Positions 3,141 through 56,800 of a DNA stretch of 64,000 nucleotides are shown here, piece by piece. This DNA is from Granulicella sp. S190 (GTDB lineage Bacteria; Acidobacteriota; Terriglobia; Terriglobales; Acidobacteriaceae), in the NCBI RefSeq assembly GCF_009766095.1, contig NZ_LMUD01000007.1, positions 86,809-150,808 of the forward strand, in the 5' to 3' direction. The position numbers and the translations under genes are program-made. How positions within the stretch are numbered: the first letter of the stretch is position 1; each line of letters begins with the position of its first letter. The notes beneath the pieces were generated by a model. The model was not told the origin of the DNA, made no database searches, and saw only the letters and a list, made by a program, of their open reading frames with translations.

Positions 3141-3337
3141 CGCGTGTCCCTGTCGTTGCGCTGTCGCTGTTGTTGCCTGTCCTTGCCGTTGACTGTCCCT
3201 GTTGTTGCCTGTCCTTTTGTTGTCATCCCGTAGGGATCTGCGGTTGTCCTTGTTGTTGCCGGTCCCTGTTGTTGCCTGTCCTTGTTGTTGCCTATCGCCG
3301 TTGCCCGCCCTTTTGTTGTCATCCCGCAGGGATCTGC
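3141..3337. repeat. Intergenic T/G-rich repeats with two copies of the 22-bp element
   Basis: The gap between the VWFA gene and the next exported protein is filled by imperfect repeats of TGTTGTTGCCTGTCC type. It carries two copies of the dispersed element, at 3220-3241 and, with one base changed (CCCGCAGGG), at 3316-3337. The open frames seen here on both strands are repetitive and have no credible start or codon bias. I see no promoter or terminator I would defend. Confidence 0.8.
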
Positions 3338-3448
3338 TTTTCCCCCACCACCGCCTCCAACTTGCACCCATCCGCCAAATAGGCAAATAATGCATTCAGC
3401 GGAGAACTCCCCGCAAAAATCCGGGTCCAATCAATCAGGGAGACATCC

Positions 3449-17373: not shown

Positions 17374-18132
17374 TCAGCTGTTTGGTGCAGCCTGGATGTG
17401 GATGCCGCACTCGACCTTATGCCCCGCCCAGCGTCCAGAGCGTGGGTCGTTGGGATCGGTCGGAATCGAAGTGCAAGGCTCACAGCCGATGCTGGTGTAA
17501 CCGGCGTCGTAGAGGGGCAAAAGCGGAATCCCGTAGAACGCGCATGCCTGCCAGACGTCCCGTGTGCTCCAGTCGGCAAAGGGACTAAGCTTGCGCACCG
17601 TGGTGCCGCTCGGCAGCGTGAACTCCGCAATCTCCTCCAGCGCAGCACGGCTGCGAGCCTGTTCGCGGCGAAGGCCCGTAAGCCACAAACGAAACTCCCC
17701 GACAGCAGTAAAGAGTGGTTCGACCTTACGCAATCCACAACAGCGATCGGGCGCGGTCTGGTGCAGCAGTCCGTGCTCCAGCTCCTGCTCCGCCACCGTA
17801 CGAGCAGGTAGAAGATTCCTCAGATTCAGCTTCCACTCCGTCGCGATGCGGTCGCGATACTCATACGTCTCGCGAAAGTGGTAGCCGGTATCAAGAAAGA
17901 GAACGGGAATCTCGGGCCGCAGCTCCAGCACAAGATGCAGGAGAAGAACATCCTCAGCTTGGAAGCTGCACGTCAGACAAGCATCCTTCGTGTCCTGTGC
18001 TCCCACCAGCTCCAGCACAAGAAGTTCGCGGACACGGAACAGCTTCGCCTCGAGCGCGGGAGAGAGTGTACCGGGCAGCTCGGCAGCTTCAGTCTCGCGA
18101 GGCATTTCAGAATTAGCTATCGAATCATTCAT
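17374..18132 (-). CDS. cysH: Phosphoadenylyl/adenylyl-sulfate reductase, iron-sulfur (APS) type
   Basis: This 252-residue enzyme reduces activated sulfate to sulfite with thioredoxin. The PP-loop region is TCSFQAEDVLLLHL and the nucleotide-binding DTGYHFRETYEY follows. The four [4Fe-4S] ligand cysteines of the plant/APS-reductase type are present: CC at 131-132 and CxxC at 217-220. The catalytic Cys242 is in KVECGIH. Enzymes with this cluster generally prefer APS, whereas cluster-less E. coli-type CysH uses PAPS. The ATG at 18132 overlaps the end of cysN (stop at 18125-18127) by 8 bases, so translation is coupled. A frame start at 18159 is less likely. It is part of the cysD-cysN-cysH operon. 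Confidence 0.92.
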   Translation of the reverse strand: MNDSIANSEMPRETEAAELPGTLSPALEAKLFRVRELLVLELVGAQDTKDACLTCSFQAEDVLLLHLVLELRPEIPVLFLDTGYHFRETYEYRDRIATEWKLNLRNLLPARTVAEQELEHGLLHQTAPDRCCGLRKVEPLFTAVGEFRLWLTGLRREQARSRAALEEIAEFTLPSGTTVRKLSPFADWSTRDVWQACAFYGIPLLPLYDAGYTSIGCEPCTSIPTDPNDPRSGRWAGHKVECGIHIQAAPNS

Positions 18133-19816
18133 TGCTGTCACTGTCGAATCTCCCGTCAAAGATGGTCTGAACTTCGAGAAAGCGAATCACTTCCTCAACA
18201 CTCCCCACAACCGCATGTCTCTCACCGAAACGTACCCTGGTGTCTTCGGATAGCGAGCGAGTCAAAACCAAAGCCCCTCCCGCGACAAGTACAGCAATAG
18301 CCTCATGCGAAGTAGTCTCGGCACGCACTACGAACGCCCCGCGAAGGAAAAGAGCGCGCTCCGTCCTGTTGACGAAATCGGCAGGCCCGGACAGGTGAAT
18401 GTGGGCTCCGGAATGTCCCCAGCGTCTGCGTCGTTCAACATCTGTAACCTCTTCTGTTACGGCATCCGTCTCTTGCGCGCGAATAGACCGGATCATCCCC
18501 GCCGCGACAGTCCGGTTGCTGACCGGATCGATCAGCACAAAGCTTCCTGTAGTTCGGTTCGCAGAGTAGTTGTCCGCCGCAAGAGACAGAACAGATTCGA
18601 TCTCTACCAGGCCAATGCCATTGAACGTCAACGTCTCCGCAGGCTGCTGCTCAAGACTCTCCACATCCAGCCGATACAAGATCGCGGTAATCTGCGCCTG
18701 CACCGTGCGACTCATATGCTTCAGAAGGTAGCGCCGGTTCAGATCGAGAGGGCTCTCTTCCATCCAAACCAGCGAGGCGGTAAAACCCGTCGTGATGGTG
18801 GCCGCAGAGTCAGGATCCGCGATCAGGTCGCCCCGGCTCACGTCCACTTCATCTGTAAGAGTAAGCGTTACAGACTGCGGAGCCTGGGCAGACGGTAGGT
18901 CGCCATCGAAGGTAACGATGCTGCGCACCCGGCTGGTCCGGCGCGACGGAAGCACCACAATGGGATCCCCCGGACGAATGCTTCCGGCAGCGATCTGTCC
19001 AGCAAATCCGCGAAAGTTCTGGTGAGGTCGAATCACGCGCTGCACCGCGAAGCGGAAGGGATCGCCAACCCCAGCCTCCGCCGCTGGCACAGACTCGAGC
19101 AGCTCGAGCAGCGAAGGCCCTCCATACCATGGCATCGCAGACGAAGCGCGAACCACGTTCTCGCCGGTCAACGCACTCACCGGCACAAAGTAAAGGTGTG
19201 GCGGACGGAGATCCCCCAGCTCATCTGCGAAAGCATTGAAATCCGCGCGAATGGAATCAAAGGTCTTCTGTGCATAATCGACAAGATCCATCTTGTTGAT
19301 CGCAACCACGATGTGGCGAACGCCCAGCAGCGCGGTGATGCAGGCATGCCGGCGAGACTGCGTCAGCACGCCCTTGCGCGCGTCGACCAGAACAATGGCC
19401 AGTGAAGCCGTAGAGGCACCCGTAGCCATGTTGCGTGTGTACTGCTCGTGGCCCGGCGTATCCGCGATGATGAACTTGCGTTTGGCCGTCGAAAAGTAGC
19501 GATAGGCAACATCGATCGTTATGCCCTGTTCGCGTTCGGCGCGGAGCCCATCGGTCAGTAAGGCAAGGTCGACGCTCTCCGCGCCCGTCGTGCCCTTACC
19601 TCGAATGGAATGAACCTGATCCTCGTAAACACTCTGCGTATCGTAGAGCAGCCGGCCGATCAGGGTTGACTTCCCGTCATCGACTGACCCGGCAGTCGTA
19701 AAGCGAAGCAGATCTCGCGCGTGTTCCTCCGCGAGAAAGCCTGAGAGAGAAAACTCTCTCTCCTCGCCGGAGAATGTTTCTGCGTCAACATTCAGAACAG
19801 ACTCACTGGTAGGCAT
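18125..19816 (-). CDS. cysN: Sulfate adenylyltransferase GTPase subunit with degenerate C-terminal APS-kinase-like domain
   Basis: This is a 563-residue CysN, the GTPase that drives ATP sulfurylase. G1 is GSVDDGKST (43-51), G3 DTPGHEQYTRN (119-129) and G4 NKMD (174-177). EF-Tu-like beta-barrel domains follow to about residue 445. Plain CysN is usually about 430-475 residues and CysNC fusions about 610-640. Here residues about 461-556 resemble a shrunken CysC. RRRRWGHSGAHIHLSG aligns with the usual GH....WLTGLSG entry and ERALFLRGAFVV with the following helix. The kinase P-loop GxSGSGKST is missing (SGPADFVNRT), so kinase activity is unlikely. The gene follows cysD with no gap (TAG then ATG). 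Confidence 0.9.
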   Translation of the reverse strand: MPTSESVLNVDAETFSGEEREFSLSGFLAEEHARDLLRFTTAGSVDDGKSTLIGRLLYDTQSVYEDQVHSIRGKGTTGAESVDLALLTDGLRAEREQGITIDVAYRYFSTAKRKFIIADTPGHEQYTRNMATGASTASLAIVLVDARKGVLTQSRRHACITALLGVRHIVVAINKMDLVDYAQKTFDSIRADFNAFADELGDLRPPHLYFVPVSALTGENVVRASSAMPWYGGPSLLELLESVPAAEAGVGDPFRFAVQRVIRPHQNFRGFAGQIAAGSIRPGDPIVVLPSRRTSRVRSIVTFDGDLPSAQAPQSVTLTLTDEVDVSRGDLIADPDSAATITTGFTASLVWMEESPLDLNRRYLLKHMSRTVQAQITAILYRLDVESLEQQPAETLTFNGIGLVEIESVLSLAADNYSANRTTGSFVLIDPVSNRTVAAGMIRSIRAQETDAVTEEVTDVERRRRWGHSGAHIHLSGPADFVNRTERALFLRGAFVVRAETTSHEAIAVLVAGGALVLTRSLSEDTRVRFGERHAVVGSVEEVIRFLEVQTIFDGRFDSDSNE

Positions 19817-20743
19817 CTAGAAATAGCCCTCCCGCTTCTTAAGCTCCATCGACCCATCTTGGTCATGGTCGATCACTCGATTCGCGCGCTCCGACGAACG
19901 GAAAGAGAGCAGCTCCTCAATAATCTTCGGCAGCGTATCCGCATCCGAGCGGATCGCACCCGTGCACGGGCTGCAGCCAAGCGAGCGAAGGCGGGAACGC
20001 ACGATCTGCGGTTGTTCGCCCAGTCGCGCAACGAAGCTTTGCTCCGTGGGAAGAAGCGCGTCCCCGCGAACATACATCGGCCGCTCCTTGGCGAAGTAAA
20101 GATCGACGATAGGAATCTCTTCCTGCAGGATGTACTGCCAGACATCCATCTCGGTCCAGTTCGAAAGCGGAAAGACGCGAATCGACTCACCCGGATGAAT
20201 GCGCGAGTTGTATAGATTCCAAAGCTCCGGCCGTTGATTCTTGGGATCCCATTGCCCGGCCTTGTCGCGAAAAGAATAGATCCGCTCCTTGGCGCGAGAC
20301 TTCTCTTCATCGCGCCGCGCGCCGCCAAAAGCAGCATCGAAGCCGTAGTGATTCAATCCATCCAACAACGCCTGCGTCTTCAGCAGGCCGCAGCAGCGTT
20401 TCGTATCCAGTGCAACTGGATTCGTGCCCGAAGAGATCGCATCTTCGTTGCGCCACACAAGAAGCTCAGCTCCAACCTCGGCCGCCATGCGGTCGCGAAA
20501 CTCGATCATCTCGCGGAACTTGAAACCCGTATCGATATGCAGAAGCGGAAACGGGATCGGACCTGGGAAAAAAGCCTTCTGAGCCAGCCGCAGCATCACG
20601 GAAGAGTCTTTGCCGATTGAGTAGAGCATCACAGGCCGCTCAAACTCCGACGCAACCTCGCGAAGAATATGAATGCTCTCCGCCTCAAGAAGCTGCAGAT
20701 GCGTGAGCTGAAGATCCGTAACAGGTGGAGCTGCCAATGCCAT
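19817..20743 (-). CDS. cysD: Sulfate adenylyltransferase subunit 2
   Basis: This 308-residue small subunit of ATP sulfurylase makes APS from sulfate and ATP together with CysN. The PP-loop motif is [38 protein letters not shown] and the C-terminal [13 protein letters not shown] plus KKREGYF are characteristic of CysD. The ATG at 20743 follows GGAG with six bases between. A TTG at 20755 overlaps that ribosome site and is rejected. It is the first large gene of the sulfate-reduction operon and lies 86 bases after a short Cys-rich leader. Confidence 0.95.
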
Positions 20744-20779
20744 AAGGGACTCCAAGGGGAGTTGAGAGATGCAGGTTAA

Positions 20780-20797
20780 TCAGGCCGCAGAGCCTGA
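20780..20797 (-). promoter_or_regulatory. Hairpin between the Cys leader and cysD
   Basis: A perfect 6-bp stem (TCAGGC with GCCTGA) closes a six-base loop in the 86-bp gap between the leader stop and cysD. On the transcribed strand it is preceded by U-rich sequence and followed by TTAACC, so it is not a textbook terminator. It could be one arm of an attenuator switch or a block of the cysD ribosome site. This is inferred from position; no competing structure was computed. Confidence 0.35.
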
Positions 20798-20829
20798 AAA
20801 ATGATTTGAAGATTTTCGAAGAGAGAAAG

Positions 20830-20901
20830 CTAGCGCATGAGTCGACACGCCTGCTCGACGTTGGCAGTACAACAACAACGGAGCTGGCATGTGAGGCGCA
20901 T
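20830..20901 (-). CDS. Cysteine-rich leader peptide (23 residues), candidate attenuator of cysDNH
   Basis: This 24-codon frame encodes a peptide that starts MRLTCQLR, continues with three consecutive TGT cysteine codons, has a fifth cysteine near its end, and stops with TAG at 20830-20832. Cys therefore makes up 5 of 23 residues. It lies 86 bases upstream of cysD on the same strand. The form, Met-Arg-Leu then a Cys run ending in C-R, resembles the short uORF leaders that sense cysteine by ribosome stalling in front of sulfur genes in actinobacteria. The ribosome site is weak (ACAGAA). In-frame upstream codons open to 21057, with an alternative ATG ten codons earlier. Function is inferred from position and codon content. 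Confidence 0.6.
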   Translation of the reverse strand: MRLTCQLRCCCTANVEQACRLMR

Positions 20902-21145
20902 TTCTGTATTCAGAGTAGCAAAGCATCGCATCACGGGCAAACCTGAAGGCCATCCTGGAGAGGCCTTCCCATACCCTCGATACTCGTAAGTCGATAAATA
21001 GAAGCCACTTTCAGCCGCATAATTCAAATAGCAAAGCACCGCGAGCGTTCGACTCATTCAGCTTTGCAATGACTAGGGCACGCGGCGTCATCGGCAAAAC
21101 AAAAATTCTCTGTGCTACTATTCGGTCTATGGCTCTGACCTTCCA

Positions 21146-21316
21146 CTACGCCGTTCTCGGCTGTTGTTGTTGTGAAGCAGGTCTGCGCCTCCTTTGTTCG
21201 TAGAAATAATAGCCGAACCCAAACACCCAATCTTCATCGCATCTCAGAGCACGACGTTGCTCTTTCGTTAGCTCAATGCACTCGAGAAACTCCAGCCATC
21301 TTCGGCATGCCCGCAT
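21146..21316 (-). CDS. Possible small 56-residue protein
   Basis: A frame starting with ATG at 21316 is preceded by an excellent GGGAGG site (8-base spacer). It encodes an amphipathic N-terminal part (MRACRRWLEFLECIELTKEQ) and an aromatic segment (DWVFGFGYYFYEQRRRR) and ends with a glutamine run. It lies upstream of the cys leader and divergent from the TonB-receptor gene. I do not recognise it. An in-frame start at 21340 would add eight residues but has no ribosome site. Codon bias is weaker than in the large genes, so it may be spurious. Confidence 0.4.
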   Translation of the reverse strand: MRACRRWLEFLECIELTKEQRRALRCDEDWVFGFGYYFYEQRRRRPASQQQQPRTA

Positions 21317-21440
21317 CGTAGCTTCCTCCCAGGAAGCCATGCAGAACTGTTGTTGTCTCTAGCCTTCGCCCTTCCCCAGACAAAGTAAAAATCAACTCCC
21401 ATTTATTCGTGTCTTTGCCAGGCACTTGGAGGTCTCCTCG

Positions 21441-24400
21441 ATGTTTCACAGATCCGCACTTCTCGCCATCTCCTTCTTCGCCGCAACCGCAAGCGCTCAA
21501 GTCGTAGGGGGCACCATCAGCGGGCTCGTCACGGACTCTGCAGGAGCCATCATCCCTGACGTGCAGATCACGATTCGCAATCAGGAGACCGGTGGCGAGC
21601 GCCACCTCCTCTCCGATGCCTCAGGAGCGTACGCAGCCCCATCCATCCCCGTCGGCGCTTACACGATCTCCGTCTCACGCGACGGCTTCGCTCCGCAGTC
21701 GCGTTCTGGTATCTCTCTCACCGTAGGCCAGGCCATCCGCATCGATCTCACGTTGCATCCCGGCAGCGTCATCGAGCAGATCACCGTCACCGACGTGCCC
21801 TCCGCCGTCAATCTCTCGACACAACAAACCTCCGGCCTCGTCAACGAGCGCCAGGTCAAAGACCTCCCACTCAACGGCCGCTCCTACGATCAGCTCATCA
21901 CCCTCAACCCGGCCGCAGTCAACTACACGGCACAGCGCAGCGGCTCGGTAGGAACCTCCAACTCCTCCGTCGGCAGTATGTTCGCAATCTCCGGCCGCCG
22001 CCCCCAGGACAATCTCTATCTCCTCAACGGCATCGAGTACACCGGCGCGTCGTTGATCAACGTCACTCCCGGAGGCACCAGCGGCCAGCTCCTCGGTGTC
22101 GAGGCCGTGCGCGAGTTCAACGTTGTCAGCGACACCTACTCGGCAAGCTATGGCAAGCGCCAGGGCGCGCAGATCTCAATTGTCACTGCATCAGGCACAA
22201 ATAATCTGCATGGCTCCGCTTATGAGTTTCTTCGCAACTCCTTCTTCGACTCCCGCAACTACTTCGACCAGGCCAGAATTCCCAACTTCCAACGCAATAA
22301 CTACGGTGCCTCTCTCGGCGGCCCCGTTCGCACCAACAAACTCTTCCTCTTCGGCAACTATGAAGGCTACCGGCAAAACCTCGGCATCACCGATGTCACG
22401 CTCGTCCCCGACACGGAGGCGCGGCAGGGTCTTCTGCCTGACCCAGCCAACCCAGGCGGCCCTCGCAAAAACTACGGTCTCGCCGCCGGAGTCCGTCCCC
22501 TGCTGAATCTATGGCCAACGCAAAATGGCCCCGAGCTCCTCGATGCCAAAGGCCGTCCAACCGGCATCGCCGAAGCCTTCTCTAGCCCCACCCAGCACAT
22601 CCGCGAAGACTTCGGCACCCTGCGCTTCGATGCCAATCTCACCGCGCGCGACCTCCTCTTCGCCGTCTACACCGTCGACGACTCCGTCGCAAATACCCCC
22701 ACGCAGAACCCTCTTTCGCTCATCAACGAGTCGCTTCGCGAACAGGTCGTCAGCGTTCAGGAGCAGCATGTCTTCTCCGCGCACCTGCTCAACACGGCGC
22801 GCATCGGTTACTCTCGCGCCAGCTTCTTCTTTCTCGGCGACATCCCCTCTTCCGTCCAGGCTGATACCCCAGGCTTCCTGGCCGGCCGGCCCACCGGAGC
22901 AATCGTCATCGCTGGTTCCACGGCATCGAACGGCTCTTCGCAGATAACCGGCGCAGGTGCGAACGTAGGATCCAACAACGCTACATCGCGTAATCTCTAC
23001 ACCCTCGACGACCACGTCTTCTACTCCCGTTCGCGTCACCAGGTCGAAGCCGGAGTATGGCTTCAGTCCCTCCAGTCGAACGACAACCTCGCCCAGAATC
23101 AGTACGGCCAGGCCTCCTTCGCGTCGCTCGCGACCTTCCTTCAGGGAACCGTAAAAACCTTCACCGTCGTCCCCAACCCCACGCCACTCAACTGGCGAAG
23201 CTTCATGGGCTCCGCCTACCTCGAAGACACCTGGCAGCTCACTCCCGCGTTTGAGATTCGCGGCGGCATTCGCTTCGAGTCCACCAACGGTTGGAATGAA
23301 GCTCACGGTCGCGCCTCGCAGTATGGCTTTACCGACGGAGTCATCAACACCACTCCCACTACAGGCACCTCCGCCCTCTCCGACAACCGCGCAAAGATCC
23401 TACCCGAACCTCGCCTCGGCATAGCGTGGAACGTCTTCGGTACTGGCAAGACATCCCTCCGCTCCAGCATCGGCCTTCATCACTCCCTGCTCGACAACCT
23501 CGACTATCGCCTCGACCAGGCCGCACCTTACAACACAACTCTCTCTTACTCCAACGTCCCCGTCGCCAGCCCGGTCAGCGGCGCACCTGGCCTCATCTCT
23601 CCCTCGAACATTCAGACCGACATCTCCACGCCCGCGGTCGTCTCCTACACCTTCAGCATCGAGCAGCAGCTCGATCAGGCCACCTCGCTCACCATCGGTT
23701 ACGTCGGCTCTCACGGCTATCATCAGATCCTCTCCGAGGATCAAAACGAACCCGCCTCCATCGTCTGCTCCCCGGCCTCAGGCTGCCCTCTCGGCGCCTC
23801 CATAGGGACGATCTACTACCCCACAATCGTCAAAGCAAATCCCCTCGTGGCTAACACCACCTCATGGACCTCAGGCGGTTCCAGTAACTACAACGCACTC
23901 GAAGTCGATCTTCGCCGCAATCTCTCTCATGGGTTGCAACTTCGGGCCAACTACACCTTCGCCAAAAATCTCGACGACGGTTCAGCCTGGAACACGAGCG
24001 TCTCTGCCAACACGCCGGCCTTTGTCTCCTACCCGGCAAATCCCTCGCTCGACTACGGTCCCGCCGCAACCGATATCCGCCACCTCGCTGCCTTCAACGC
24101 GACCTACGAGCTGCCTGTCGGTCGCGGTCACCTTCTTCTACCCACGACGTCGTCGTGGATCGACCACGCAGTATCAGGGTGGAGCCTCAGCACCATCGCA
24201 ACCCTTCAAACCGGATTTCCGTTCAGCCCTCAACTTGGCTACAACCCCACCGGCTCCGGAGACACCCGCAACCCCGTTCGTCCAAACGTCAACCCGGACT
24301 TTCACGGAAGTCTCTACACGCACGGCAGCACTGCAACCCGTGTCTCGCAGTTTTTTGCGCCTACTGCCTTCACTGCGCCTGCCTACGGCACCCTCGGCGA

Positions 24401-24689
24401 TCTCGGCCGCGACACTCTCACCGGTCCCGGCTACGCGGACTGGGATCTCTCTCTCCTGAAATCCACGACGCTGACCGAGCGAACCCGCCTCCAATTCCGC
24501 GCTGAATTCTTCAACGTTCTCAATCACACCAATCTGCAGACGCCGAACGAAGTCGTCTACACCGGCGGCCCCACACAAGGTCCACCCGCCAGCCAAACCG
24601 CCGCCGCTGTGCAAAGCCCTACCGCAGGAGTCATCACGGCCGCCTCTACCAGCCGTCAGATCCAACTAGCGCTCAAGCTGATTTTTTAG
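21441..24689 (+). CDS. Oar-like TonB-dependent receptor with carboxypeptidase-regulatory plug extension
   Basis: This is a 1082-residue outer-membrane protein of the large acidobacterial TonB-dependent transporter-like family. The ATG at 21441 follows GGAGG by eight bases and gives a signal peptide (FHRSALLAISFFAATASAQ). Next comes a carboxypeptidase-regulatory (Ig-like) domain beginning GGTISGLVTDSAGAIIPDV. The plug region has LNGRSYDQLITLNPA and FAISGRRPQDNLYLLNGIE. The remainder is a long beta-barrel (LHGSAYEFLRNSFFDSRNYF, GYVGSHGYH, FNVLNHTNLQTPNE) ending in the aromatic terminus LALKLIF. Such proteins are linked to polysaccharide or oligosaccharide uptake. The GH3 gene 132 bases downstream supports that role. 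Confidence 0.92.
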   Translation: MFHRSALLAISFFAATASAQVVGGTISGLVTDSAGAIIPDVQITIRNQETGGERHLLSDASGAYAAPSIPVGAYTISVSRDGFAPQSRSGISLTVGQAIRIDLTLHPGSVIEQITVTDVPSAVNLSTQQTSGLVNERQVKDLPLNGRSYDQLITLNPAAVNYTAQRSGSVGTSNSSVGSMFAISGRRPQDNLYLLNGIEYTGASLINVTPGGTSGQLLGVEAVREFNVVSDTYSASYGKRQGAQISIVTASGTNNLHGSAYEFLRNSFFDSRNYFDQARIPNFQRNNYGASLGGPVRTNKLFLFGNYEGYRQNLGITDVTLVPDTEARQGLLPDPANPGGPRKNYGLAAGVRPLLNLWPTQNGPELLDAKGRPTGIAEAFSSPTQHIREDFGTLRFDANLTARDLLFAVYTVDDSVANTPTQNPLSLINESLREQVVSVQEQHVFSAHLLNTARIGYSRASFFFLGDIPSSVQADTPGFLAGRPTGAIVIAGSTASNGSSQITGAGANVGSNNATSRNLYTLDDHVFYSRSRHQVEAGVWLQSLQSNDNLAQNQYGQASFASLATFLQGTVKTFTVVPNPTPLNWRSFMGSAYLEDTWQLTPAFEIRGGIRFESTNGWNEAHGRASQYGFTDGVINTTPTTGTSALSDNRAKILPEPRLGIAWNVFGTGKTSLRSSIGLHHSLLDNLDYRLDQAAPYNTTLSYSNVPVASPVSGAPGLISPSNIQTDISTPAVVSYTFSIEQQLDQATSLTIGYVGSHGYHQILSEDQNEPASIVCSPASGCPLGASIGTIYYPTIVKANPLVANTTSWTSGGSSNYNALEVDLRRNLSHGLQLRANYTFAKNLDDGSAWNTSVSANTPAFVSYPANPSLDYGPAATDIRHLAAFNATYELPVGRGHLLLPTTSSWIDHAVSGWSLSTIATLQTGFPFSPQLGYNPTGSGDTRNPVRPNVNPDFHGSLYTHGSTATRVSQFFAPTAFTAPAYGTLGDLGRDTLTGPGYADWDLSLLKSTTLTERTRLQFRAEFFNVLNHTNLQTPNEVVYTGGPTQGPPASQTAAAVQSPTAGVITAASTSRQIQLALKLIF

Positions 24690-53860: not shown

Positions 53861-56800
53861 ATGTGGATCGTTCGTCTCGCGCTTAGGAGACCATATACCT
53901 TCGTTGTCTTATCGCTGCTGCTGTTTATCATCGGCCCCATCGTCATGCTCCGGACGCCGGTCGATATCTTTCCGAATATCGATATTCCCGTGGTCTCCAT
54001 CGTGTGGAACTATGCGGGTCTGTCACCGGAGCAGTTAGCAGATCGAATCGTTCTCCCCTTCGAACGAAATTTGACCACAGTCGTCAACGATATCGACCAC
54101 ACCGAGTCGCAGACGCTGAACGGCGTCTCCGTCGTCAAGGTCTTCTTTCGCCCCTCCGTTAACATCTCCCAGGCCGTGGCTCAAGTCACCGCCATCGCGC
54201 AGACAGCGCTTCGCCAGTATCCACAGGGCACCACGCCTCCTCTGGTCATCCAGTACAGTGCGTCGAGCGTGCCGGTACTGCAGCTCGGTCTATCCGGTCA
54301 GGGCTTGAGTGAGCAGCAGCTGAACGACTTCGGAACCAACTTCATCCGCACCCAGTTGGCGACTGTCCAGGGCGCCTCCATGCCATTTCCTTATGGAGGA
54401 AAGCAGCGCCAGATACAGGTCGATGTCGATACCCAGAAGCTGCAGGCTTATGGGCTCTCAGCCTCGGACATCGTAAACACCATCTCAACGCAAAACATCA
54501 TTCTTCCAGCCGGCGACATGAAGATGGGGCACGTGGACTATCAGGTGGAGACCAATAGCGCCCCCAGCTCGATCGCTGCTCTGAACAATCTGCCCATCAA
54601 AACAGTCAATGGCGCCACCATCTACATCCATGACATCGGCAATGTCCGCGACGGCTTTCCTCCTCAGACGAACATCGTCCGAGTAGACGGGCAACGTGCC
54701 TCGTTGATGACGGTTCAGAAGACGGGCAACGCTTCAACCCTCGACATCATCTCGGACGTCCGGGCGCAGCTCCCTCTCATCGCGGCGCAGCTGCCACCCG
54801 CGCTTCGCATTCAGCCCATCGCCGACCAATCGGTCTTCGTTCGCGGAGCGATTAGCGGTGTTGTGCGCGAAGCCATCATCGCCGCCTGTCTGACCGCCGC
54901 GATGATTCTGATCTTTCTCGGAAGCTGGCGTTCGACCATCATCATCGCCGTCTCCATTCCCTTATCGGTGATCTGTTCTCTGTTGATGCTCGCGGCTCTG
55001 GGCGAAACCATCAACATCATGACCCTTGGCGGTCTCGCTCTAGCAGTCGGCATCCTCGTCGATGACGCGACCGTCGAAATCGAAAATATCAATCGAAATC
55101 TCGAGGAGGGTAAAGAGGTCGAACAGGCAATTCTCGATGGCGCCGCCCAGATCGCAGTTCCTGCCTTCGTCTCCACGATCTCCATCTGCATCGTCTTCGT
55201 GCCAATGTTCCTTCTCGGTGGCGTAGCACGATACCTCTTCGTTCCTCTAGCCGAAGCAGTAGTCTTCGCCATGCTCGCGTCGTACTTCCTGTCGCGAACC
55301 ATCGTTCCGACCATGGCGAAGTATCTGCTCAAACCGCATGACGAGACAGCTTCTCCTCATACCAGCCGCAACCCTCTGGTCCGGTTTCAGCTCGCCTTTG
55401 AGCGATACTTCGAGAAACTTCGCAACTGGTACCACGGCCTGCTTACCATCTGTCTCGAGTACCGGCTCACCTTTCTCTTCTCCATCGTTGCCTTTTGGAT
55501 CGCGTCGATCGTCCTGCTCTACCCCTGGCTAGGTCAGGACTTCTTCCCCTCGGTCGACGGAGGTCAGTTCAAGCTCCACGTTCGCGCTCACACTGGCACC
55601 CGCATCGAAGACACCGCAAGGCTATGCGATCAAATCGAAGATGTCATTCGCGGCGAGATCCCTAAAGCTGAGGTGACCTCGATCATCGATAACATCGGGA
55701 TTCCATACTCGGGTCTGAATCTCTCTTACTCGAACTCCGCACCCGTCGGCACTGCCGATGCTGACATCCTGGTCTCGCTCTCAGAAAAGCATCATCCCAC
55801 GGCAGACTACACTCACGCTTTGCGCGATAAGCTGACCGAGCAGTTTCCAGGTACCAGCTTCTACTATCTGCCAACCGACATCGTCAGTCAGATCCTCAAC
55901 TTCGGTCTGCCTGCGCAGATCGACATCCAGGTAGTCGGTCAGCAAGTGAGACAAAACCGCGCCGTAGCGGAAAAGATGTTGGAGCAGATCAGTCACATCC
56001 CGGGAACCACCGATCTCCGCATTCAACAGCCCTTCAATCTTCCGATATGGACGATCGATGTCGATCGAACTCGCGCCCAGCAAGTCGGCTACAGCCAGCG
56101 AGACGTCGCCGTAAGCGTGCTTACTAGTCTGAGCGGCAGCTTTCAAACGAACCCCACGTTCTATCTCAATCCGCAAAACCACGTCAGCTACAACATTGCG
56201 GTGCAGACTCCGCAGTACAACGTGCAAAGCCTGCAACAGTTGGAAAACTTTCCCATCGCAACCAACGGCACGACGCAGCAGCCCCAGATCCTTGGCAACC
56301 TCGCATCGATCACAAGAGGCGCCGAGCAAGGTACCGTAAGCCACTACAACGCCCGGCCTGTCATCGACATCTACGGCTCGGTGGAAGGCACTGATCTTTC
56401 CAGCGTCTCCACCAGGATTGAGCAGATGGTCAAAGACAGCAAAGGGAATCTGCCTCGCGGAACCGAAATCTATGTACGCGGGCAGGTACAGACGATGCAT
56501 ACCTCCTTCACAGGTCTCGTCTACGGTCTGCTGTTTTCGATCGTCCTCGTCTATGCGCTCATCGTCGTCAACTTTCAAAGCTGGCTCGATCCCTTCATCA
56601 TCATCGCGGCTCTCCCCGGCGCTCTCGCGGGAATCGTCTGGCTGCTGTTCATCACCGGCACCCACATTAGCGTCCCCGCCTTGACCGGTGCAATCATGTG
56701 CGTCGGTGTCGCGACTGCAAACTCGATCCTCGTAGTCAGCTTCGCGAAAGAGCAGATGGATCTGGGCATGACCGCGCTGGATGCCGCACTCTCCGCGGGC

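Follow-up and report, generated by a model that had tools for sequence, protein, structure and literature searches.

The cysDNH locus and its cysteine-rich leader

The window analysed here, a stretch of 64,000 nt from Granulicella sp. S190, carries on its minus strand cysD, cysN and cysH in this order, followed by two TauE/SafE-type permeases flanking an ABC ATPase and then by other genes. A gene for a TonB-type outer-membrane receptor runs in the opposite direction. The features used below are the following, in window coordinates.

17374–18159, minus strand: cysH, (phospho)adenylylsulfate reductase
18125–19816, minus strand: cysN
19817–20743, minus strand: cysD, sulfate adenylyltransferase small subunit (NF003587/TIGR02039)
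20741–20753, minus strand: Shine–Dalgarno sequence (SD; GGAG) and start codon of cysD
20749–20762, minus strand: local hairpin ACUCC-CCUU-GGAGU containing the cysD SD, from folding
20780–20797, minus strand: hairpin UCAGGC-UCUGCG-GCCUGA in the gap between leader and cysD, 6 bp, with no U-tract after it
20830–20901, minus strand: Cys leader ORF MRLTCQLRCCCTANVEQACRLMR, 23 codons plus stop
20849–20856, minus strand: GAGCAGGC (codons 16–18), alternative partner of the anti-RBS element in the minimum-energy fold
20869–20877, minus strand: Cys codons 9–11 (TGT TGT TGT), proposed stalling site, with third-position TGC variants in orthologs
20880–20888, minus strand: GCCAGCUCC, candidate anti-ribosome-binding-site (anti-RBS) element overlapping codons 5–8, from the consensus fold and the RBS scan
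20912–20917, minus strand: -10 element TACTCT (in TTTGCTACTCT), 10 nt before the leader ATG
20935–20940, minus strand: -35 element TTGCCC of the leader promoter, with a 17-nt spacer to the -10 element
21129–21203, plus strand: distal Cys leader of the receptor gene, MALTFHYAVLGCCCCEAGLRLLCS; TFH.A...GC.CCEAGL is kept in L198–L201
21339–21362, plus strand: proximal Cys leader of the receptor gene, MQNCCCL, 78 nt before the receptor ATG
21441–24689, plus strand: TonB-type outer-membrane receptor gene, divergent from cysD (PF13620 and PF25183)

The minus-strand frame MRLTCQLRCCCTANVEQACRLMR* opens with the ATG at 20901–20899, and its stop codon ends at 20830, which leaves 86 nt to the cysD ATG (20743). 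Codons 9–11 are TGT TGT TGT and the frame encodes five Cys in total. The initial annotation of this DNA had reported a Cys frame of 23 residues with three consecutive TGT codons, five Cys and a distance of 86 nt to cysD, and all of this was confirmed. The 5.05-Mb genome contains 61 copies of the motif TGTTGTTGT, four of which fall within 500 nt at the cysD/receptor locus; because two more Cys-run frames lie on the plus strand before the receptor gene, the cluster represents three separate runs. This clustering, together with the conservation of the frame at cysD, is not a product of chance.

A third ORF of the window, encoding 1058 aa and starting at 53861, also has a Cys-run frame ahead of it, MSPVCYCCILFLNARFLCRS. 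Positions 3144–3390 (plus strand) consist of repetitive sequence with Cys-rich frames such as MLPVLAVDCPCCCL..., which look spurious.

Conservation of Cys leaders upstream of acidobacterial cysD

A leader was defined as a frame of at most 45 codons with at least three Cys within six codons and a stop codon within 200 nt of cysD. The data showed such a frame in 83 of 125 distinct cysD upstream regions, almost all of them acidobacterial (rows that were too short or matched another over the final 150 nt were left out, one row, L133, is from a bacterium of unstated phylum, and the rows in this and the other leader counts are related rather than independent), compared with 5 when the opposite strand was read and 4.3 on average after dinucleotide shuffling. 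The Cys-run frames that the initial annotation had proposed to look for at the cysD genes of relatives are thus present. The other 42 of the 125 upstream regions had no leader by this criterion, and neither did any of the 55 from other phyla (those of 57 rows with at least 260 nt upstream). Two non-acidobacterial loci, L158 and L184, were flagged when the criteria were loosened.

Of the genomes searched, 63 of 150 in the family, 53 of 62 in the genus and 38 of 199 in the phylum sample yielded a cysD gene. Among the best 80 loci, the nearest named relative is Edaphobacter lichenicola M8US30, with 93% identity and the leader MRISCQLRCCCPFNVEQACRLTR; a leader is present in Granulicella sp. dw_53 (L122) and Terriglobus albidus (L136), and none was seen at cysD of a Silvibacterium MAG (L120). 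When a looser criterion was applied to 14 loci (within L346–L364) belonging to other families in the phylum, leaders were found in L346, L353 and L357, each with a terminator, and in none of the remaining 11.

Orthologous leaders are present in the close relatives of the window cysD, namely L117, L317–L323 and L325–L330. The L324 leader, MYIARQLRCCPLNA, has lost the third Cys, retains only two and fails the criterion; in 12 other close orthologs that were aligned, the only variation in the three Cys codons is TGT/TGC at the third position. The leader peptides as a whole vary widely, while the density of Cys, encoded mostly by TGT, is kept, and the Cys residues are sometimes split, as in MRACCQCRNCCPAHPVAVCCRVR or MRCICCMSLDMCMCMCACGRRGEPS. 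The TGT:TGC ratio is 368:138 in cysD leaders, 122:26 in receptor leaders, and 76:26 and 81:56 in YeiH and reductase leaders (two sets that, in all codon, promoter, terminator, fold and anti-RBS counts, were read on the wrong strand at some loci), compared with 23:84 in long ORFs of the window that were listed mechanically.

The cysD genes of a single genus form groups of about 86–95%, 79–82% and 65–73% identity to the window gene, with different leader types; this pattern suggests that leader and operon may have been transferred or replaced as a unit.

Cys leaders upstream of other sulfur-related genes

We further searched for leaders at other genes, among them the divergent receptor, which combines a carboxypeptidase-regulatory-like domain (PF13620) with an outer-membrane barrel (PF25183). 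Its orthologs in the genus carry a leader in 26 of 30 cases (stop codon within 350 nt), nine of the 26 having two successive leaders. In L220, L222, L224 and L225 the distal leader is followed by a CCCACG...CGTGGG U-tract terminator, and in L216–L218 a terminator of this type follows a single leader. No leader was found within 400 nt of any of 29 other PF25183 receptors of this genome (30 of 57 PF25183 matches were taken, one being that of the window itself).

Leaders were also found at 23 of 30 YeiH (PF03601) loci with a limit of 330 nt, at 25 of 30 loci of a NirA/Sir-family reductase (PF01077) with a limit of 200 nt, and at 18 of 24 TlpA/ResA-like redoxin loci, the ten best matches included (24 of 26 loci used; limit 250 nt). 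YeiH additionally matches TIGR00698 ('YeiH family putative sulfate export transporter') below the cut-off, and in some genomes (G170, G098, G179) it lies directly upstream of the receptor gene in the same direction. The best NCBIfam match of the reductase is the NirA family, also below the cut-off, so that it may act on either sulfite or nitrite. In the same genus, leaders were found at none of 30 cysK and none of 20 glnA genes within 200 nt of gene starts that were set mechanically and may in part be misplaced.

The genome of the window carries leaders at all five gene sets: cysD, the receptor gene (two), YeiH (L275), the reductase (L300) and the redoxin (L415). Sequence comparison indicates that the cysD leader of the window belongs to a conserved acidobacterial set of Cys leaders before sulfur-related genes, and the system is much wider than the cysD leader described in the initial annotation.

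In this genome, the YeiH leader (C16) reads MPSRCCCS and is followed by a 37-aa hydrophobic ORF and then by YeiH, and the redoxin leader (C33; L038 / L415) reads MQHSFCCCRRSPLA and lies 78 nt before the TlpA/ResA-like gene. A stretch resembling GAATCGAG before the start codon is strikingly conserved at the redoxin loci.

Probable promoters of the leader transcripts

The window leader promoter scored 11.5, compared with 8.12 (SD 1.25) at control positions, and GNTANNCT is present in 9 of 10 rows of the ortholog alignment A2. For 87% of 82 cysD leaders and for all 23 reductase leaders, a sigma70-like promoter was detected with a score higher than the 95th percentile of the controls; receptor and YeiH leader promoters were weaker, exceeding that percentile in 35% of 26 and 43% of 21 cases. 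The median distance from the end of the -10 element to the leader start was 9 nt for cysD and 7 nt for the reductase, a spacing that arises partly by construction because the start with the best promoter was picked with 2–21 nt allowed. SD-like motifs ahead of the leader were found in 8/82 cysD, 1/23 reductase, 7/26 receptor and 0/21 YeiH leaders. Given the arrangement TTGCCC-17-TACTCT-10-ATG in the window, the leader probably lies at the very 5' end of its mRNA, which would then be leaderless.

Terminators and candidate antiterminators

A hairpin followed by a U-tract, typically GCCCAC...GTGGGC, was flagged in 20 of 23 reductase leaders and 50 of 86 cysD leaders, some of these flags, such as those of the window (L051) and L059, being hairpins inside the leader. 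In an alignment of 21 reductase leaders (A1), the terminator helix pairs in 88.6% of cells and contains 15 double-change cells, compared with 6.3 after shuffling; three pairs have a double change, a number reached by 116 of 500 shuffles. The flagged hairpin of the window lies at the leader end, has an energy of -9.4 kcal/mol and is followed by the weak U-rich tract UUCUCUCUU. No intrinsic terminator was found between the leader stop codon and cysD in the window.

In two-state folds of the reductase leaders the terminator was stable in both states for most rows; L287, L288, L306 and L310 read 0.00 in both states, probably because the expression misplaced the helix, so that this test says little. 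The terminators in sister leaders correspond to classical attenuation, for which antiterminators are only suggested. One candidate antiterminator of the reductase leaders, CUUUGC:GCAAAG, was plausible by eye and found no support in swap and shuffle controls: the cognate mean was 14.8 and the swapped mean 14.2, and its covariation score was matched by 99 of 500 shuffles.

The 6-bp hairpin at 20780–20797, which the initial annotation had named as part of a candidate attenuator, is present and is unlikely to be the switch. We rejected it as a terminator because it lacks a U-tract and does not appear in the consensus fold of 10 orthologs. Apart from the role given to this hairpin, conservation among relatives lends strong support to the broader proposal that an acidobacterium has a Cys-leader attenuator.

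Searches against Rfam gave no match at the gathering score for eight loci. For positions 20500–21700 of the window they gave only one sub-threshold match, a fluoride riboswitch at 21534–21618 on the minus strand (16.9 bits versus 34, E 0.088), which lies inside the receptor gene and was taken as chance.

A candidate anti-RBS element before the Cys codons

In the consensus fold of 10 orthologs, GCCAGCUCC, located directly 5' of the Cys codons, pairs with GGAGU...AUGGC of the cysD start. We scanned the leader transcript, excluding the last 24 nt before cysD, and the best distant partner of the RBS was this element in 9 of 13 orthologs. The mean duplex energy over the 13 orthologs was -11.6 kcal/mol, compared with -7.3 (SD 2.9) for 200 control RBSs, 8% of which were as low. 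In L328, where CAGCACC replaces CAGCUCC, the upstream sequence CGUUACUCC forms 9 perfect base pairs with the RBS of that locus, GGAGUAACG, which was equalled by 49 of 5000 shuffles.

Among terminator-less cysD leaders (a class assigned by a simple expression, in which L067, L072, L082 and L091 are elsewhere flagged with a terminator), the best RBS partner lay just before the Cys run in 15 of 44, compared with 11% in shifted windows. These comprise 10 of 12 leaders of the window lineage, in which the site ranks first, and 5 of 32 others. The same scan gave 5/18 for receptor leaders (shifted 8%), 2/17 for reductase leaders (shifted 7%) and 2/29 for leaders with terminators (shifted 15%).

Folding of the leader RNA, which the initial annotation had proposed as a way to look for alternative hairpins, showed no switch in the window, since the SD stays in its local hairpin. 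Its unpaired probability was 0.02, 0.02 and 0.03 in the three ribosome states, and a first two-state fold with only the RNA 3' of the ribosome had given 0.02 in each state. Without a ribosome, the pairing of the anti-RBS element with its alternative partner GAGCAGGC in the window (L051) was 0.89. When the leader was included, long-range pairing of the SD was about 0 in 12 of 13 orthologs and 0.26 in L322. The SD partner switched with ribosome position in four of ten orthologs (L322, L325, L327 and L328), the window not among them: from the ribosome at the stop codon to the stalled ribosome, the unpaired fraction of the SD rose from 0.04 to 0.09 in L322, from 0.09 to 0.22 in L325 and from 0.00 to 0.13 in L328, and fell from 0.22 to 0.11 in L327. 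The mean pairing between SD and element over the ten orthologs was 0.20 without a ribosome, 0.04 with a stalled ribosome and 0.32 with a ribosome at the stop codon, and was carried by these four. The SD was hardly freed (mean unpaired 0.08, 0.10 and 0.09) because the local hairpin takes over. The forced long-range structure lay 6.2 kcal/mol above the minimum in the window and 0–9.2 kcal/mol above it over the ten orthologs, and alignment A2 contained no compensatory pairs. With the complementarity present and no switch in the window fold, RBS masking is a possible output at the window cysD, one that we put slightly below an even chance.

A proposed model for cysteine-responsive control

We infer with high confidence that the leader is translated and that it senses cysteine. 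Most likely, ribosomes on the Cys leaders switch these sulfur-related genes on when cysteine is short. Judging from the position of the promoter, transcription would start within a few nucleotides of the leader ATG. With enough Cys-tRNA the leader would be translated quickly; with too little, a ribosome would stall at codons 9–11. The footprint of a ribosome with a Cys codon in its A site would reach over an element just 5' of the Cys codons. In leaders like that of the window, GCCAGCUCC would thereby be hidden under the stalled ribosome instead of being paired with the SD and start of cysD (GGAGU...AUGGC), and translation of cysD would be freed; in sister leaders, stalling would instead prevent formation of the intrinsic terminator.

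Taken as a whole, a leaderless, ribosome-mediated cysteine attenuator of cysDNH that forms part of a regulon and includes RBS masking is a reasonably probable explanation. We only tentatively extend it, as an idea with somewhat less than even prospects, to a multi-gene acidobacterial cysteine regulon in which leaderless polycysteine leaders mix terminators and RBS masking within one genome, the TonB-type receptor is a member that would import a sulfur source, and the Cys-starved ribosome would itself be the switch, since the stalling codons of the cysD leader adjoin the anti-RBS element. Our confidence in both is reduced because the anti-RBS signal outside the window lineage is close to the shifted-window rate and because SD exposure barely changes.

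Several other explanations were considered. Cysteine sensing could be the same and the output at the window cysD be Rho-dependent termination in the 86-nt gap instead of RBS masking; this fits the lack of an intrinsic terminator after the window leader, a gap that by eye is C/U-rich and G-poor in the window, L319, L329 and L330, and the Rho model proposed for terminator-less actinobacterial cys leaders in the available text of PMC1262725. It leaves the conservation of GCCAGCUCC and its match to the RBS unexplained, and we regard it as unlikely, though worth serious attention. A classical attenuator, with either the 20780–20797 hairpin or the leader-end hairpin as terminator, is improbable: relatives do have terminators with U-tracts at both cysD and the reductase gene, in L117, L317, L320 and L326 a hairpin of different sequence folds close to the position of 20780–20797, and the leader-end hairpin was flagged with UUCUCUCUU after it, but the gap hairpin lacks both a U-tract and a counterpart in the consensus fold, and among close orthologs only L051 and L327 have a U-rich tract after the leader-end hairpin.

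The signal might also be metal or redox state sensed by the nascent Cys-rich peptide, as with nascent exported copper sensors. Two papers that deal with regulation by copper, by way of a uORF or of an exported protein during its synthesis, also mention TonB-dependent proteins (PMC9426467 and PMC9973294). Against this, the spacing of the Cys and the residues around them differ between leaders, the genes served handle sulfur or thiols, and leaders as short as MQNCCCL or MPTRCCCS have no room for an export signal, which together make such a sensor very improbable. That TGTTGTTGT acts as a binding site in DNA or RNA, with a reading frame present only by coincidence, would agree with the dominance of TGT runs, and the Cys-codon search criterion itself favours a coding reading; yet many leaders have split Cys, only third-position changes occur in the 12 close orthologs, and the start codons of the frames follow closely behind a promoter, so that we give this possibility almost no weight.

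If correct, the model gives such leaders a likely signal, together with a set of target genes, throughout a family of soil Acidobacteria. It would offer a substrate class for an otherwise anonymous outer-membrane receptor, which is predicted to import a sulfur source if the mixed regulon exists, and it provides natural series of leaders in which one signal is read either with or without a terminator. On this view, polycysteine leaders would have originated or spread in phyla that are far apart.

Comparison with known cysteine leaders

Our literature search, which covered few subscription papers so that an earlier prediction is possible, found no paper on Cys leaders in Acidobacteria and no regulon of this phylum that combines terminators with, perhaps, RBS masking. 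The available part of PMC4833913 cites a comparative survey of attenuation published by Lopatovskaya and colleagues in 2010. The accessible text of PMC1262725 predicts Cys leader peptides upstream of actinobacterial cys operons with no conserved terminator. As in Acidobacteria, runs of Cys codons lie upstream of cys operons; according to the same text, the actinobacterial runs are near the stop codon, whereas that of the window is nearer the middle, and it reports no RBS-complementary element. The available sections of PMC8632094 describe uORFC-8-2 of Rhodobacterales, with tandem Cys codons, a terminator and predicted ribosome-mediated attenuation. In these sections uORFC-8-2 lies exclusively upstream of cysS and is dominated by UGC; in contrast, the acidobacterial leaders precede other genes and favour UGU.

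Classical amino-acid operon attenuators have a GC hairpin and a U-tract, which also follow the majority of reductase leaders and roughly half of the cysD leaders; the window differs in having no terminator between its leader and cysD. Canestrari et al. (2020) reportedly described, to go by the title, polycysteine-encoding leaderless short ORFs as cysteine-responsive attenuators of mycobacterial operons. By that title the mycobacterial leaders are short ORFs with Cys runs, like the acidobacterial ones, and are leaderless, as promoter position suggests for the latter; several operons with Cys-run short ORFs, as expected of such attenuators, occur in the genome of the window. According to the available text of PMC13236596, cysteine biosynthetic genes of M. 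smegmatis are regulated by translation attenuation. As far as can be told, the acidobacterial regulon works like the mycobacterial polycysteine leaders. It differs from them in phylum, in a gene set that, by description, includes an outer-membrane receptor and YeiH, and in the intrinsic terminators that many acidobacterial leaders carry.
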